NCBI GenBank assembly: GCA_024648695.1
Contig: JACAVV010000041.1
Location: 1-40,134 of the forward strand
Source: Nitrospina sp.
Lineage (GTDB): Bacteria > Nitrospinota > Nitrospinia > Nitrospinales > JACRGP01
Direction of reading: 5' to 3'
DNA: 40,134 nt
Of the stretch, positions 1,762 through 40,008 are shown in pieces; within the stretch, counting starts at the first letter, position 1, and every line of letters begins with the position of its first letter. The position numbers and the translations under genes were made by a program. The notes below the pieces were generated by a model. It had not been told where the DNA came from, did no database searches, and worked only from the letters and a program-made list of their open reading frames with translations.

Positions 1762-3368
1762 TGGATAGGCTTTCCCTGAGAATCTGGTTTTCTTTGAAAA
1801 ATAAAAAACCGATCATATTGGAAAATGATGTTGTAATAAACTTTGGTTTTTTCTATCCAATCAATAATGGCTTGTTCCTTTTCGGGGTTACTACATTTTC
1901 CATGCGCCCAACTGCAACTGTTTTCCCAAATAAACCATTTGCGAGTCAGGTCAATCACTACAAATTCAGCCCATACGAGTTCGAAGGTTGGGGACTGGGT
2001 GTTGCCGGTAAAAATACCGCCAACAAATGAAAGCAGGGATTGTCCAGAGCTTCCTAGAACAGAGTGAGGATTTTCAATCCCCTGAGGAAACCGGAAGAAG
2101 TTTTTCCGGTCTGTCAGGTGATTCCAGTTCACGGTATTTTGCACTGATATTGCTGTAGTGGCCTCCGCCGGAATATTTGCTTTAAGTGCCATCTTGATCA
2201 AGCCATCCCTCTTGGTCGGTTGGTATGCGGTGAAATGATAAGACCATCCCTTGGACGTCCAGAATTTTTGGCTTACTGGAGAGGGGGCTTTCCAAATGTG
2301 AAATCCCACCATACAAACAATCAGGATGCCATACAAAACACTTTTGCGAAACTTTAAGCGACTCCAAATCGATACTGCCTTTGGCAGTGCCTCGCTGAAA
2401 GCAAGAATCACAGGGGCGACCAATCCAGCGGTGTAGTGGTATTTCCAGCCGTAATAATTGGGGTCTGATGAGAGTAAAGAAATAGCGGCCAGGGGTAACG
2501 CCAGAATCAGGATTCCAGGACGAAGTAGAGAAAGGAAGCCGAGGGGAATGAAGATATATAGTAAAAATTTTAATTTTCCGGGCTCAGACACAATGGCCCA
2601 AAGCGCATGGAAAGGGTGGGTTACCAGATAGATAAGAATTTCACTCAGGCTGTTGCCCATCCAGGAAAAAGCACTGGAGTCCAGTCCACCTTTCACTCCA
2701 GTGGTGAATGTAGGAATTAAAAAATGGGTGGCCAAATAAAAATAAGCCAAACCAGCAATGAACAAAATGGATCCCTCGCGCCACTTTTTCTTTATCAAAA
2801 CCAGGTAAATCCCACATGCCGCGGTTTGCAGGGCGAAGGGTTCCTTGACCAAAGCCAACGCCAATGCACAAGCAAGCGCCCCGGATAATTTCCCCTTTTT
2901 TTCCAGAAAAAAGAAGGCGAACAGCAAGGGAACCGCAAGATGGTCCATGTGAAAATCGAACAGGGCGTTGTACCATACAGGAAAATAAAGGCCATAAGCC
3001 AAAGCGCATAACCCGCCATAATTCCGATACAGCCAGACGATAGGTAGTAATAGAGCCCCGGATTGAAGGATCAACAGGAGGTAGGGAACCCAATCCAAAG
3101 GAAACAAACGATAAAGATACGCGTAAAACACCATAAAGGGTTGGGCGTGTACATTGAATAGATACCACCATTCTCCCTGCGCCATACGATAAAAATGGTG
3201 CATGAAAAAACCCATGTCCGCAATTGAAGTATGCAGGGAGGCATATTTCAGGCAAGCCATAAAGCTTATGATTAAAAAGAAAAATACAAATATTCGCCAC
3301 TCGGGTTTCATTATTTTTAAAAGGTGTGGCGCAAAGGATGAAGGTGCGGTGCTCAAACAAGGCCTCAT
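1758..3368 (-). CDS. DUF2079-like multi-pass membrane protein (possible GT-C type glycosyltransferase)
   Basis: The protein has 536 residues: many transmembrane helices through roughly residue 380, then a soluble C-terminal part of about 150 residues. The first periplasmic loop carries an acidic residue in SIADMGFFMHHFYRMAQG followed by HAQPFMVFYAYLY, a pattern known from DUF2079 proteins, which are thought to be GT-C-like. The chosen ATG lies one base after the upstream stop codon. An internal ATG at 3311 (residue 20, MKPEWRIFVFF), directly before the first helix, is an equally plausible start. Its probable role is adding a sugar from a polyprenyl-phosphate donor on the outer face of the inner membrane; donor and acceptor are unknown. 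Confidence 0.65.
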   Translation of the reverse strand: MRPCLSTAPSSFAPHLLKIMKPEWRIFVFFFLIISFMACLKYASLHTSIADMGFFMHHFYRMAQGEWWYLFNVHAQPFMVFYAYLYRLFPLDWVPYLLLILQSGALLLPIVWLYRNYGGLCALAYGLYFPVWYNALFDFHMDHLAVPLLFAFFFLEKKGKLSGALACALALALVKEPFALQTAACGIYLVLIKKKWREGSILFIAGLAYFYLATHFLIPTFTTGVKGGLDSSAFSWMGNSLSEILIYLVTHPFHALWAIVSEPGKLKFLLYIFIPLGFLSLLRPGILILALPLAAISLLSSDPNYYGWKYHYTAGLVAPVILAFSEALPKAVSIWSRLKFRKSVLYGILIVCMVGFHIWKAPSPVSQKFWTSKGWSYHFTAYQPTKRDGLIKMALKANIPAEATTAISVQNTVNWNHLTDRKNFFRFPQGIENPHSVLGSSGQSLLSFVGGIFTGNTQSPTFELVWAEFVVIDLTRKWFIWENSCSWAHGKCSNPEKEQAIIDWIEKTKVYYNIIFQYDRFFIFQRKPDSQGKPIQ

Positions 3369-33180: not shown

Positions 33181-34389
33181 ATGGCGAAAATTATGGACGA
33201 TTCCAGTAAAACGGTATTTGGCCTCACCCGGGACTTGTTTGATACGGTGGTAAACCTGCGGAGAGACTTGCATTGCCACCCTGAATTGAGTGGAGATGAG
33301 ACCGGCACGACGGAAAAAATTTCAAATTATTTGGATACGTTGGGAATTTCACACCATACCATGGTTGAAAAAACCGGGGTGGTTGCTGATTTGCCTGGTC
33401 AAAAAAAGGGTCCGTTTGTTGCACTACGTGCAGATAATGATGCTTTGCCCATTCTGGAAGAAACTGGATTGCCTTTTACTTCCCAAAACCATGGGATAAT
33501 GCACGCATGTGGCCACGATGGTCATAGCAGTATGTTGTTGGGTGCCGCCGCTTTGTTGACGCAGGGAACACCTCTACCTTTGCCTGTACGCCTGATTTGG
33601 CAACCTGCGGAAGAGTTGGGTACCGGTGCCAAATCAATGATAGATGAGGGAGTGTTGGATGATGTAGGTATCATTTTTGGCGGTCATCTGGACCGCCGTT
33701 ATCCTGCGGGGACTCTGATTGTTACTGAAGGTCCAGTCAATGCTTCCACCGACACGTTTCATGTTCGGATTCAGGGTCAGCAAGGCCATGGAGCGCGGCC
33801 CCATGAGGCTTGTGATGCGATTGTCGTAGCCAGTCTTATGGTAACAGCTTTGCAAACCATCGTTTCCAGGGAGGTGGACCCTGCGCATCCTTCGGTTGTA
33901 TCTATTGGCAGGTTTGATGCCGGAACAGCCCCAAATGTGATTGCAGGTTCGGCTATTCTTGAGGGAACCATTCGGGCGCAGGATAAAAGCGTACGCACCC
34001 ATTTGCAATCATCAATTGAGCGTATGGCAAAGGCTATCGGACAACTTCATGGCGCGCAGGTTTCTGTGGAGTTCAAATTCGGGACGCCAAGCCTGGTCAA
34101 TGCACCGGAACCGACAGCCCTTGCAAAATCTGCGGCTATTGATGTGGTGGGCGCCGACCATGTCGAGCCGCTTCATACAGCTAATATGGGTGGAGAAGAT
34201 TTCGCCTATTATCTAGAAAAAGTGCCAGGGTGTTACATACGGTTTGGAGGACAAGCGCCGGGTCGAGAAGGTTTTCCAGCACATTCCAGTCGATTCGATT
34301 TCGATGAGCGGGCTTTGGCTGTAGGTGCCGCTTGGTTTGCCCGTGTTGCTTACTTTGCGGGGAAGGCTCTTTTTCGGGGTAGCTTATGA
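33181..34389 (+). CDS. M20-family amidohydrolase (N-acyl-amino-acid hydrolase type)
   Basis: The 402-residue protein matches the M20D amidohydrolase group: LRRDLHCHPELSGDE, the metal-binding HACGHDGH (Cys110, His112), the Glu pair in QPAEELGTGA (144-145), His169 in FGGHLDRRYPAGT, GHGARPHEACDAI in the lid domain and NMGGEDFAYYLEKVPG, with the last His in FPAHSSRFDF. Relatives hydrolyse N-acyl amino acids, hippurate or hormone conjugates. LDRRYPAG replaces the more usual loop after His169, which may affect specificity. GAGGA precedes the ATG by four bases. Its stop overlaps the next ATG (ATGA), tying it to the acetyltransferase fusion. Confidence 0.9.
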   Translation: MAKIMDDSSKTVFGLTRDLFDTVVNLRRDLHCHPELSGDETGTTEKISNYLDTLGISHHTMVEKTGVVADLPGQKKGPFVALRADNDALPILEETGLPFTSQNHGIMHACGHDGHSSMLLGAAALLTQGTPLPLPVRLIWQPAEELGTGAKSMIDEGVLDDVGIIFGGHLDRRYPAGTLIVTEGPVNASTDTFHVRIQGQQGHGARPHEACDAIVVASLMVTALQTIVSREVDPAHPSVVSIGRFDAGTAPNVIAGSAILEGTIRAQDKSVRTHLQSSIERMAKAIGQLHGAQVSVEFKFGTPSLVNAPEPTALAKSAAIDVVGADHVEPLHTANMGGEDFAYYLEKVPGCYIRFGGQAPGREGFPAHSSRFDFDERALAVGAAWFARVAYFAGKALFRGSL

Positions 34390-35990
34390 AAACGGAAAAC
34401 TTTCAAATCCGGGAAGCAAATGAAAGCGATGTAAGGGCTATAGCCGATATCTTTTATTCGATTTATAGTTCTGAATACCCTTATCCCCAGTTTTACGATA
34501 CGGAATGGTTAAAGCGCTCAGTGTTCAATGATGATATCGTTCTTCTTGTAGCCGAAGATACTCGTACGGGAGACATCCTTGGAACTGCTTCAGTGATTTT
34601 GGACATAGGTGCCCATTCGGATCTGTTGGCGGAATTTGGCCGCTTGGTGGTGCATCCCCAGCCACGGGGAAGAGGCGTTGGAACCCGGCTGATGCAACAC
34701 CGGATCGAGTTAGTTAAAAACCGTCTGCATGTGGGACTCGTAGAAAATCGGACGTCTCATACCTTTTCACAGACAATTTCATTCAAAAACGGATTCGTAC
34801 CAGTGGGTTTTCTTCCCTTAAAACTGCCCTTAACCGAGTTCAGAGAATCGATGGCCTTATTTGTGCGGTATTTTGGGGATGCTTTAAAAATGCGGCGTAA
34901 CCATCCCCGAATCATCCCTGAAGCTTATGGACTGTCTCAAATCGCCCTGGCTCATTGTTCCCTGGATTGCAATGCCGTGATTGATGACCAATCACCCCCA
35001 TATCCCCATTGTCGGGAGTTTATTTTAGATAACCTCCAAAATGAAGGTTTGCCCTCCCTGCTTCAAATTCAACGCGGGCGAGTGAGCCATCGGGAATTGT
35101 TCGGTCCGATGCGATTGCATTATGGTTTTTTTCGTTTGCAAGCAGCTCATGCCCAATATCTGGTGGCACGCGGGTTAGATGCCCTGGGTAAGGCTGGGCC
35201 GGTGGTGGGGGCGTTGGGTTTTATTCACGACGAAAACGAGCGCTTATTGAAGCTTTTTGAGCTTATCAGTACGAACGATTTTCCAGTTCGCTACCTATTG
35301 GAACAGGTATTGGAACAGGCTCGGATTCTGGGTGTTGAGTACCTTGAGGCCGACGTCAATGCTCATGCACCCAAGATGCAGAGGACTTTGCTGGAACTCG
35401 GATTTACTCCAGTTGCATACATTCCAGCAATGGTATTTTGCGATTTTGAGCGGATCGATGTTGTGCGTATGGCCAAGGTGACCAAAATTTTGGATCCAAA
35501 ACGTATTAAGATAATAGCAGAAGTAAAACCCATAGCCGATCTTGTCATACAATCTTTCACCTGCAAATCGGTTTCTCCCATCTTAGCGGAAGCTGTTGGA
35601 AGGATTTCCTTGTTCCGGGGACTAAACGTTGAGCAAACCCAACAACTGGCAAGCTTGTGTCGACTGGTATCAATGTATGAGGGAACTCGATTGTTCAGGG
35701 TGGATGAAGATTCTAAAGAAATGTTTTTGGTTTTGGAAGGCCGCATTTCAATTACCAACGGTTCTGATTGCGAGTCCATTGGGTATGTAGAGCAAGGTGA
35801 AACGGTTGGGGAGCGTGCTCTTTTGATTGGGGATACTCACACCGCAGAAGCCAAAGCTGAATGTGGAGGTTTGGTCGCTGGTATTTCCCGGGAAGGACTC
35901 AACCGGCTCATCCGTCAACGTCCGGATATTGGTTTGATTTTGTATCGAAACTTGGCCATCGGTCTGGGCGCAAAGTTAATGCGCGCTTAG
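34386..35990 (+). CDS. Tandem GNAT acetyltransferase fused to a C-terminal cyclic-nucleotide-binding domain
   Basis: The 534-residue protein has three parts. Residues 1-150 form a GNAT domain with the acetyl-CoA loop in LVVHPQPRGRGVGTRLMQH. Residues about 220-360 look like a second, degenerate GNAT half (EADVNAHAPKMQRTLLELGF) without its own RxxGxG loop. Residues about 405-534 are a CRP-type nucleotide-binding barrel (EMFLVLEGRISI, GETVGERALLIGD). In its phosphate-binding cassette the usual Arg-Ser/Thr-Ala is replaced by THTAEA, so the key arginine is missing. It probably transfers an acyl group under control of a ligand. The order (GNAT first, cNMP last) is the reverse of the mycobacterial protein acetyltransferase. 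It overlaps the M20 gene. Confidence 0.85.
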   Translation: MKTENFQIREANESDVRAIADIFYSIYSSEYPYPQFYDTEWLKRSVFNDDIVLLVAEDTRTGDILGTASVILDIGAHSDLLAEFGRLVVHPQPRGRGVGTRLMQHRIELVKNRLHVGLVENRTSHTFSQTISFKNGFVPVGFLPLKLPLTEFRESMALFVRYFGDALKMRRNHPRIIPEAYGLSQIALAHCSLDCNAVIDDQSPPYPHCREFILDNLQNEGLPSLLQIQRGRVSHRELFGPMRLHYGFFRLQAAHAQYLVARGLDALGKAGPVVGALGFIHDENERLLKLFELISTNDFPVRYLLEQVLEQARILGVEYLEADVNAHAPKMQRTLLELGFTPVAYIPAMVFCDFERIDVVRMAKVTKILDPKRIKIIAEVKPIADLVIQSFTCKSVSPILAEAVGRISLFRGLNVEQTQQLASLCRLVSMYEGTRLFRVDEDSKEMFLVLEGRISITNGSDCESIGYVEQGETVGERALLIGDTHTAEAKAECGGLVAGISREGLNRLIRQRPDIGLILYRNLAIGLGAKLMRA

Positions 35991-37629: not shown

Positions 37630-37669
37630 AAAAACCACATTTCAAGGAGTATCCTGAAATGTGGTTTTT
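37630..37669. terminator. Strong bidirectional rho-independent terminator
   Basis: Fifteen perfect base pairs (37630-37644 with 37655-37669, arms AAAAACCACATTTCA and its complement) are extended by three more pairs after one bulged A, with a three-base loop. T-runs follow on both strands. It lies between the convergent transporter and kinase genes and should stop both transcripts. Confidence 0.85.
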
Positions 37670-37688: not shown

Positions 37689-39122
37689 TCATTCTGCGGG
37701 AACGGGTTCTTCTTCCCCTTCTGCAATAGTAGATACAGGTTCTTCAAAAGAGATTTTGAAATCCTTATCCGGTTCTTCAATTTCCGTCGGTTGTTTCCAG
37801 GCTAATTTTAAACTGATTTTTTCTTTATCTTCTTTCAGGCTTGCTTCCAGTTCCATATCAACAGTGGATGAGGGCTTTAATGTCACAAGGTCGGTTCCCT
37901 GTTGAATACAAATGGTTCCTTCTTTCAAACCTTTGATAATGTCTTCCAAATATGAGATAGCACGCTTGGTATCCATCTCACCTTTTAAACTAATGTTTTT
38001 TTTTGCCATTACAGTTCTCCTTTCCAATGAATTTTTGTCTGGGTCCAAATAATCGGATATCAAATCAATAGCACGCTCGAAGTCTACACGACCGCTAATT
38101 TCTACTACTGGAAACCCTTGTAAATGATCAATGTAAGTTTCTTCAGAACAATCCTCAATCAATGCGTTTTCTTCGGGTTCATAAAACAGGCCTGGAGATT
38201 TCATGAAAGCCGGCAATAAGTCCCTTCTGGACTCCAAAGAAATCTCATTTAACTGGGTTGGTTCGGAATTGTGTTTCCAGTTCAATAGAACAATCAAATC
38301 CAAAGAGTGTGATAGTTTGAATTTATTGTCTCCGAAGCATTGATCTATAAACACGTCATATTTTTCTTCATGTTCCCAAAGCTCCTGCAGATCCATTTTT
38401 TCAAAACGCGTTTTATCTTCAGGGGCAACGATTTTTTTCAGATCAGGATTATTGAGAGCCGTTCCAGGGTTTATTCTGGGAAGCTTAGGGATTCCTTTCA
38501 TAATATATTCGGAACCTTCCTGCTTGAACAATAATCGGTCATTGCTGACAAAATCTGATCCTTTGCTCATAAAATGCAAAGCTAAAGTCGACTTCCCCAT
38601 ACCGGAAAATCCGGCCATGGCGATTCCTTTGTTCTTCCAGATAACTCCTGCGGCATGGGCCAGAAGAAAATCTTTTCTTAATAACCACTCAATATACCGG
38701 TTGTTGATAAAATTGATTACCTGGTTCGGGTTTTCCAGGCAAGGGCCAATGGCCAGGTTGTCACCTGAACCGAAATAGAAAACCATTCCAGTCAATCTTT
38801 TGCGAACGACTCTGCCGTCGGGGAAATCGATGTATTCCTCTTTGATTTTGGTTTTTCCGGGATCGGGTTGCTTGATGGTAAATTCTGTATCGAATACAGG
38901 TTCGAGACCTTCAATAGCAACAACGCTGATTTCCCCCGACTCGGATTTTTCTGTGGTTACAAAACCTCGAAAGTAATCCGTCAAAATTTCTTTTAGATGG
39001 ACGGAATTTGTCCAAAGAGCCACCTGGCACTGCTCAAAGCTCAAACGCAGGCATTCGTTTGTCGAATGCTCCTGCTTTAATTGTTCGACCATTTCTTTAA
39101 TAGAAGAACCTGGATCAGGCAT
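37689..39122 (-). CDS. HprK-related kinase B (GAK system) fused in frame to an amphi-Trp domain
   Basis: The frame encodes 477 residues. Residues 1-371 are an HprK-like serine kinase: a leading domain, then the P-loop GFSGMGKST (171-179) and SNDRLLF (193-199). Residues 372-450 match the amphi-Trp domain, normally a separate small protein of this locus: MAKKNISLKGEMDTKRAISY, EDIIKGLKEGTICIQQG and LKLAWKQP. An acidic tail of about 30 residues follows. ATG codon 372 has its own ribosome binding site, so a separate amphi-Trp protein is probably also made. The start overlaps the ATP-grasp stop by eight bases. The system's biochemical role is unknown. Confidence 0.85.
   Translation of the reverse strand: MPDPGSSIKEMVEQLKQEHSTNECLRLSFEQCQVALWTNSVHLKEILTDYFRGFVTTEKSESGEISVVAIEGLEPVFDTEFTIKQPDPGKTKIKEEYIDFPDGRVVRKRLTGMVFYFGSGDNLAIGPCLENPNQVINFINNRYIEWLLRKDFLLAHAAGVIWKNKGIAMAGFSGMGKSTLALHFMSKGSDFVSNDRLLFKQEGSEYIMKGIPKLPRINPGTALNNPDLKKIVAPEDKTRFEKMDLQELWEHEEKYDVFIDQCFGDNKFKLSHSLDLIVLLNWKHNSEPTQLNEISLESRRDLLPAFMKSPGLFYEPEENALIEDCSEETYIDHLQGFPVVEISGRVDFERAIDLISDYLDPDKNSLERRTVMAKKNISLKGEMDTKRAISYLEDIIKGLKEGTICIQQGTDLVTLKPSSTVDMELEASLKEDKEKISLKLAWKQPTEIEEPDKDFKISFEEPVSTIAEGEEEPVPAE
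38007..38021 (-). promoter_or_regulatory. Internal ribosome binding site and ATG for the amphi-Trp domain
   Basis: On the minus strand AGGAGA (38021-38016) is followed after six bases by an in-frame ATG (38009-38007) that begins MAKKNISLKG. The longer context GGAAAGGAGAAC is among the strongest Shine-Dalgarno-like sequences in this window. Translation from here would give a product of about 106 residues (37689-38009), the expected size of a standalone amphi-Trp protein. Confidence 0.7.
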
Positions 39123-40008
39123 GATTTAACTCTTTCAGTACGTGTTTGACATACAATTCAGCACCATCAATTCCATTGGCTTCCTTCAACCCTCTAAAAC
39201 CACCAAAGGCGGAAACCTCGAAAATTTTTGGGCCGTCGTCTGTTTCTACCAAATCGACACAGGTGAAATCCAATCCAAAAAGAGCCTGGGTCCTTTGTGC
39301 AAGATCAATGATTTCCTGTGAGGGTTCAAAGGCTTCATATTTTCCTCCCGAATTGGTGGTCGTGTTCCAACTGCCCTCTTTAGCGACTCGGGCATAGGTG
39401 GCCAGGTATTCGTTACCTAAAAACACGATGCCAAGATCTTTACCCGGAAGCGGCACCCATTTTTGAATATAAAGCATTTTGTTTCCTTCCGCCTTGAACT
39501 CCTCGAATTCTTCGCGGCCCCTGTTGTCTGCTTCAATAATTCTCATGCCGCGGGCCTTGGAAGTGTACAGAGGTTTCAAAACCGCCCTGCCATAATCTTC
39601 TACTGCACTCCAACCTTCTTCAAGGTTTTCTGTTATAACGGTCGCAGGGATAGGAACCTTGCCTTGTTGTAGCTTCAGGGTACAGCTCATGCGGTCCAAC
39701 AACCCCATAATTCTTGCGGGATCGGAAAAAAATCGAACCCCTTTTCGGGAAAGATGAGTAAGGATTTCCAATCGATTTAATAAATCGGGAGAATATTCCG
39801 CCCCGATTTTTTTTATCATGAAAGCATCGTAACCTGCTAATTCAGTTCCCTTATTGTGGATGGTATCCGACTCCAGATCGAAACACACATCTTCCATATG
39901 GATCAAGGACCGATGCCCGGTTTGCCGTTCAATTTCATCTGCCAAATGTTCCGAAGACCACGATCCAGGAAGGCCGATGATACCAATTTTCAAGGATTTA
40001 TTATTCAT
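39115..40008 (-). CDS. ATP-grasp enzyme, GAK system
   Basis: The 297-residue protein has the RimK-like ATP-grasp arrangement. A pre-ATP-grasp domain (IGIIGLPGSWSSEHLADEIE) comes first; the ATP-binding lysine is in RAVLKPLYTSKARGM. IQKWVPLPGKDLGIVFLGNE follows, and the metal-binding end of the fold is LDFTCVDLVETDDGPKIFEVSAFGG. ATP-grasp enzymes join a carboxylate to an amine or thiol through an acyl-phosphate. Adjacency to the HprK-related kinase and amphi-Trp domain fits the GAK locus known from bacterial genomes, whose substrate is unknown. AGAGGTG precedes the ATG by seven bases. The stop overlaps the kinase ATG. Confidence 0.85.
   Translation of the reverse strand: MNNKSLKIGIIGLPGSWSSEHLADEIERQTGHRSLIHMEDVCFDLESDTIHNKGTELAGYDAFMIKKIGAEYSPDLLNRLEILTHLSRKGVRFFSDPARIMGLLDRMSCTLKLQQGKVPIPATVITENLEEGWSAVEDYGRAVLKPLYTSKARGMRIIEADNRGREEFEEFKAEGNKMLYIQKWVPLPGKDLGIVFLGNEYLATYARVAKEGSWNTTTNSGGKYEAFEPSQEIIDLAQRTQALFGLDFTCVDLVETDDGPKIFEVSAFGGFRGLKEANGIDGAELYVKHVLKELNHA

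Follow-up and report, generated by a model that had tools for sequence, protein, structure and literature searches.

Does the open reading frame that joins an HprK-related kinase B to an amphi-Trp domain in the window (the whole stretch of 40,134 nucleotides of Nitrospina sp. DNA analyzed) represent a genuine merger of two genes, and which proteins are made from it? An earlier note, made from the letters alone, had proposed that the stop codon of the kinase gene was lost and that two products result. The features on which it was built were all present, namely an uninterrupted frame of 477 codons, a P-loop at residues 171-179, an ATG at codon 372, and an AGGAGA motif six bases upstream of this ATG (Table 1). 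Also the family numbers that it had given, TIGR04355 and TIGR04354, were the right ones, as both HMMs matched the fused ORF above their cut-offs (486.7 bits versus 200, covering profile positions 2-350 of 351, and 61.7 bits versus 31, respectively). The amphi-Trp part matched PF20068 as well (28.3 bits versus a cut-off of 27), and its residue W442 is the invariant tryptophan of the family.

Table 1 Features of the fused gene and its immediate surroundings, in window coordinates
Feature	Position	Strand	Basis
Fused ORF, 477 codons: HprK-related kinase B, linker and amphi-Trp	37689..39122	-	ORF list, HMM
HprK-related kinase B domain, residues 8-358	38049..39101	-	TIGR04355; Foldseek versus HprK/P
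P-loop GFSGMGKST, residues 171-179	38586..38612	-	G171, G174, G176, K177 and S178 invariant in 27 sequences
NDR motif, residues 194-196	38535..38543	-	Invariant in 27 sequences
Linker, codons 359-371 (13 codons), site of the kinase stop in relatives	38010..38048	-	
AGGAGA, Shine-Dalgarno-like, 6 bases ahead of the internal ATG	38016..38021	-	
Internal ATG at codon 372; homologous start codon in free amphi-Trp proteins	38007..38009	-	
Free amphi-Trp protein, 106 aa, predicted from the internal start	37689..38009	-	
Amphi-Trp domain, residues 378-443	37794..37991	-	TIGR04354; PF20068
Likely two-way terminator: perfect inverted repeat of 15 bases, flanked by A/T tails	37630..37669	.	Read from sequence
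GAK system ATP-grasp enzyme; 8-base overlap with the kinase start	39115..40008	-	TIGR04356
Contig end and right end of a multi-copy insertion sequence, directly ahead of the ATP-grasp start codon	40011..40134	-	

In the kinase part, every invariant column of the kinase alignment was kept, including those of the P-loop, NDR, and PRxNPGT motifs. Indeed, the window protein deviated at none of 65 strongly conserved kinase positions and at none of nine such amphi-Trp positions; with no strongly conserved residue lost, the fused gene does not look decayed. The AlphaFold model of the fusion was confident for the kinase up to about residue 360 and of low confidence for the linker. It was also of low confidence for the amphi-Trp part, because the alignment used contained no amphi-Trp rows. 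Foldseek placed the kinase model closest to HPr kinase/phosphorylase (HprK/P; 1kkm, 1kkl, and 2qmh; probability 1.00), followed by PEP carboxykinases. The P-loop kinase fold is thus common to both proteins, although identity in the structural matches amounted to 11-17% and the window kinase scored 27.3 bits against the HprK/P equivalog TIGR00679, below its cut-off of 240 bits. For the free amphi-Trp domain, one helix and four strands were predicted. Foldseek returned nothing below an E value of 0.8 for this model among solved structures, so that the fold gives no functional clue; similarly, neither the fusion nor the amphi-Trp part gave a match in PDB sequence searches.

Whether a stop codon usually separates the two domains was examined in kinase-B homologues from whole-genome searches of about 1100 genomes (repeats counted) and three named contigs. 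Run-on was counted from the point equivalent to residue 360, in distinct loci of several phyla with a readable kinase 3' end. In all 42 other loci the kinase frame ended within 27 codons of the domain end, mostly after 0-7 codons, and in none did it enter another domain, whereas the window frame continues for 117 codons. This comparison is strong evidence that the fusion is unusual. In addition, the kinase and amphi-Trp genes were separate and adjacent in the five same-order genomes (G006, G021, G030, G038, and G046), with 20-120 bases between the kinase stop and the amphi-Trp ATG and with a ribosome site of its own for amphi-Trp. The kinase stops of these genomes correspond to window codons 362-365, where the window has sense codons; a change of a single base would turn codon 363 or codon 365 into a stop. 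Separate genes are thus the rule and the kinase stop was lost in the window, as had been anticipated. In G038, amphi-Trp is in phase with the kinase, 40 codons being open behind a single TGA, so that loss of one stop suffices for fusion; this arrangement plausibly represents the pre-fusion state. The open linker by itself is weak evidence, the chance of in-frame read-on over about 10 codons after stop loss being about 1/5 (our estimate, from 1/3 for phase and about 0.6 for no stop).

The fusion was present in one genome only. The four other genomes of the same family (71-86% complete) were without the kinase, and therefore the stop loss cannot be dated. As judged from these comparisons, the view that the stop loss is private to this genome and derived, with the old ribosome site retained, is well supported. 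Some further candidates were set aside. The 460-codon frame of G098 and those of several other genomes owed their extra length to upstream sequence and not to an extension beyond the kinase end. An internal duplication had been considered, as GRVDFERAIDLI at the C-terminus of the kinase was paired in a mixed alignment with GEMDTKRAISYL at the N-terminus of amphi-Trp, and the two DNA stretches have a 10-base word in common. It was rejected, as the profile comparison gave a probability of 0.7% over five columns and an equally high score was reached in 9 of 500 shuffles.

The upstream neighbor of the kinase gene places the locus near the GAK system (TIGR04354, TIGR04355, TIGR04356, and TIGR04357). 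Its ATP-grasp gene matched TIGR04356 with 424 bits (cut-off 300), so that the ATP-grasp, kinase B, and amphi-Trp families are all above cut-off in the window. Moreover, as in that system, the ATP-grasp gene adjoins kinase B, the 8-base overlap occurring in relatives G030 and G021 too. The system has kinase and amphi-Trp as separate proteins, whereas they are fused in this genome only, where the free form is predicted. As to the CofD-related family TIGR04357, the best score in this genome was 86 bits versus a cut-off of 340; it was found in none of the five same-order genomes and stayed below cut-off throughout the six kinase-B genomes of the phylum, but was above cut-off in eight of ten kinase-B genomes of other phyla. 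The window locus is hence a GAK-like, CofD-less variant. This locus form was seen in G006, G021, G030, G038, G046, and the present genome, with a protein consisting of PhoU and an APH-like kinase in the operon. In G105, the kinase, the CofD-related gene (C31:3369-4463), and amphi-Trp (3064-3345) follow in that order, and in G164 the CofD-related gene likewise lies between kinase and amphi-Trp. The adjacency of the latter two genes, which the earlier note took as usual, accordingly held in this phylum and failed in other phyla; loss of CofD would explain why they are neighbors here. Literature searches on amphi-Trp, the GAK system, and TIGR04355 retrieved no papers naming these families, and no function of the GAK system was found in the literature searched.

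Since the stop was lost and the amphi-Trp gene retains an intact start signal, two products are the natural prediction. Codon 372 aligned exactly with the start of free amphi-Trp proteins of class 1 (those adjoining the kinase, as opposed to class 2, upstream in the operon), the M-x-K motif being kept, so that the ATG with its AGGAGA, assumed before to be functional, is matched by a homologous start codon. Among 30 window ORFs there were 261 internal in-frame ATGs, only 4 of which had a Shine-Dalgarno match of at least six bases at usable spacing. The likeliest output would thus be a kinase-amphi-Trp fusion plus free amphi-Trp. Such an arrangement resembles that of sctQ/hrcQ-type genes, in which an internal in-frame start was found by experiment to yield a separate C-terminal product of HrcQ/SctQ (PMC8553256). 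In both cases one frame gives a full-length protein and its C-terminal domain, in the window by prediction. However, the internal start of the window is the leftover start of a once-separate gene, and the likeness is one of mechanism and not of kinship. A run of nine A residues follows the internal start (window 37990-38009, ATGGCAAAAAAAAAC), and a similar run occurs at the same place in G038; slippage at this run would put amphi-Trp out of frame in the fusion and in the free protein alike.

The first part of the operon lies elsewhere in the assembly. In relatives, the gene order is an unknown protein (400-425 aa), amphi-Trp class 2, PhoU plus APH-like kinase (about 555 aa), ATP-grasp, kinase B, and amphi-Trp class 1, often with phosphoglucomutase 3' of the last. 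The first gene (L037:2165-3412 and L040:2249-3523), here of 415-425 aa, reached the cut-off of none of the Pfam and NCBIfam families. In the present genome, contig C43 carries the first three genes at its end (L037:136-3412) and, like the window contig, stops inside the multi-copy insertion sequence (L037:1-122). This element, whose reading frame starts with MSQPGFFDL, occurs in about 12 identical copies and some diverged ones, with 4-base duplications such as TTAA and TTAT. It has multiplied recently and its copies break the assembly. The TTAT duplication is common to the flanks of C43 and the window contig and was found at none of 14 other ends examined, indicating that both contigs were very probably joined by one insertion. 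Hence, the GAK-type operon is very probably interrupted by a single insertion that lies behind the PhoU-APH gene and ahead of the ATP-grasp ATG. The element end brings GAGGTG to five bases ahead of this ATG, possibly a replacement ribosome site for the ATP-grasp gene.

That the fusion protein is the only product and the internal ribosome site a relic seems unlikely. Without a stop, ribosomes from the kinase start do cross this site, but AGGAGA is well spaced, the ATG is intact, and the start context aligns with that of free proteins. Decay of the locus, with the operon disrupted by the insertion sequence and the stop loss a matter of functionless drift, is improbable too. It would be in line with an element end directly ahead of the ATP-grasp start, with the recent burst of identical copies, and with the absence of the kinase from the other genomes of the family, yet the reading frames are intact, all conserved residues are retained, and the ATP-grasp ATG came out of the insertion whole, with a possible ribosome site from the element end.

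A sequencing or assembly error that hides two truly separate genes is improbable as well. A single inserted or missing base in the linker would suffice to part them, as the neighboring frame 1 closes with a TAA overlapping the amphi-Trp ATG (TAATG, a stop-start overlap). The linker contains a run of five A residues, and a single genome shows the fusion. However, TA ahead of ATG is frequent by chance, and the remaining conserved genes scanned in the window fit their families, with no frame breaks. In addition, contigs end about 120 bases (some 117-124) inside identical copies of the insertion sequence, which suggests short-read k-mer assembly; indels in a run of five A residues would be rare in such an assembly, rendering a false indel at the junction less likely.

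The reading preferred here, and considered probable, is a stop-loss merger of the final two genes in a GAK-type operon, with both products made and amphi-Trp acting as partner of the kinase. Once the kinase stop codon was lost, ribosomes starting at 39122 would produce the 477-aa chain, bearing amphi-Trp on a flexible linker, and those starting at 38009 the ordinary 106-aa amphi-Trp protein, this free copy keeping the ancestral function. We propose that the cell tolerates the tethered amphi-Trp, or profits from it, because kinase B and amphi-Trp are functional partners already. The fusion hints at such cooperation, and both families occurred in exactly the same six of 77 genomes of the phylum. 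Most likely, amphi-Trp would bind kinase B as a partner or serve as an adaptor that presents substrate to it. Residues P, A, and W are invariant in both amphi-Trp classes, and no Ser, Thr, or His is common to them; this pattern is no less compatible with a role in binding than with one as phosphate acceptor. A narrower reading, in which class-1 amphi-Trp is a direct partner or substrate of kinase B in this CofD-less GAK variant, with a tethered copy in cis and free copies in trans, is tentative and has a rather small chance of being right. Were amphi-Trp the substrate, Thr414, retained in 12 of 13 class-1 domains and confined to this class, would be a candidate acceptor residue. The fusion, a modest and isolated departure from a known set of genes, singles out kinase B and class-1 amphi-Trp as the pair likeliest to touch, and provides a ready-made single construct for autophosphorylation or complex-formation tests.

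Downstream, the terminator-like repeat of Table 1 lies between the fused gene and a convergent transporter gene. Further away (window 34386-35990), a 534-aa protein is encoded that has a GNAT acetyltransferase domain at its N-terminus and a cyclic-nucleotide-binding domain at its C-terminus.
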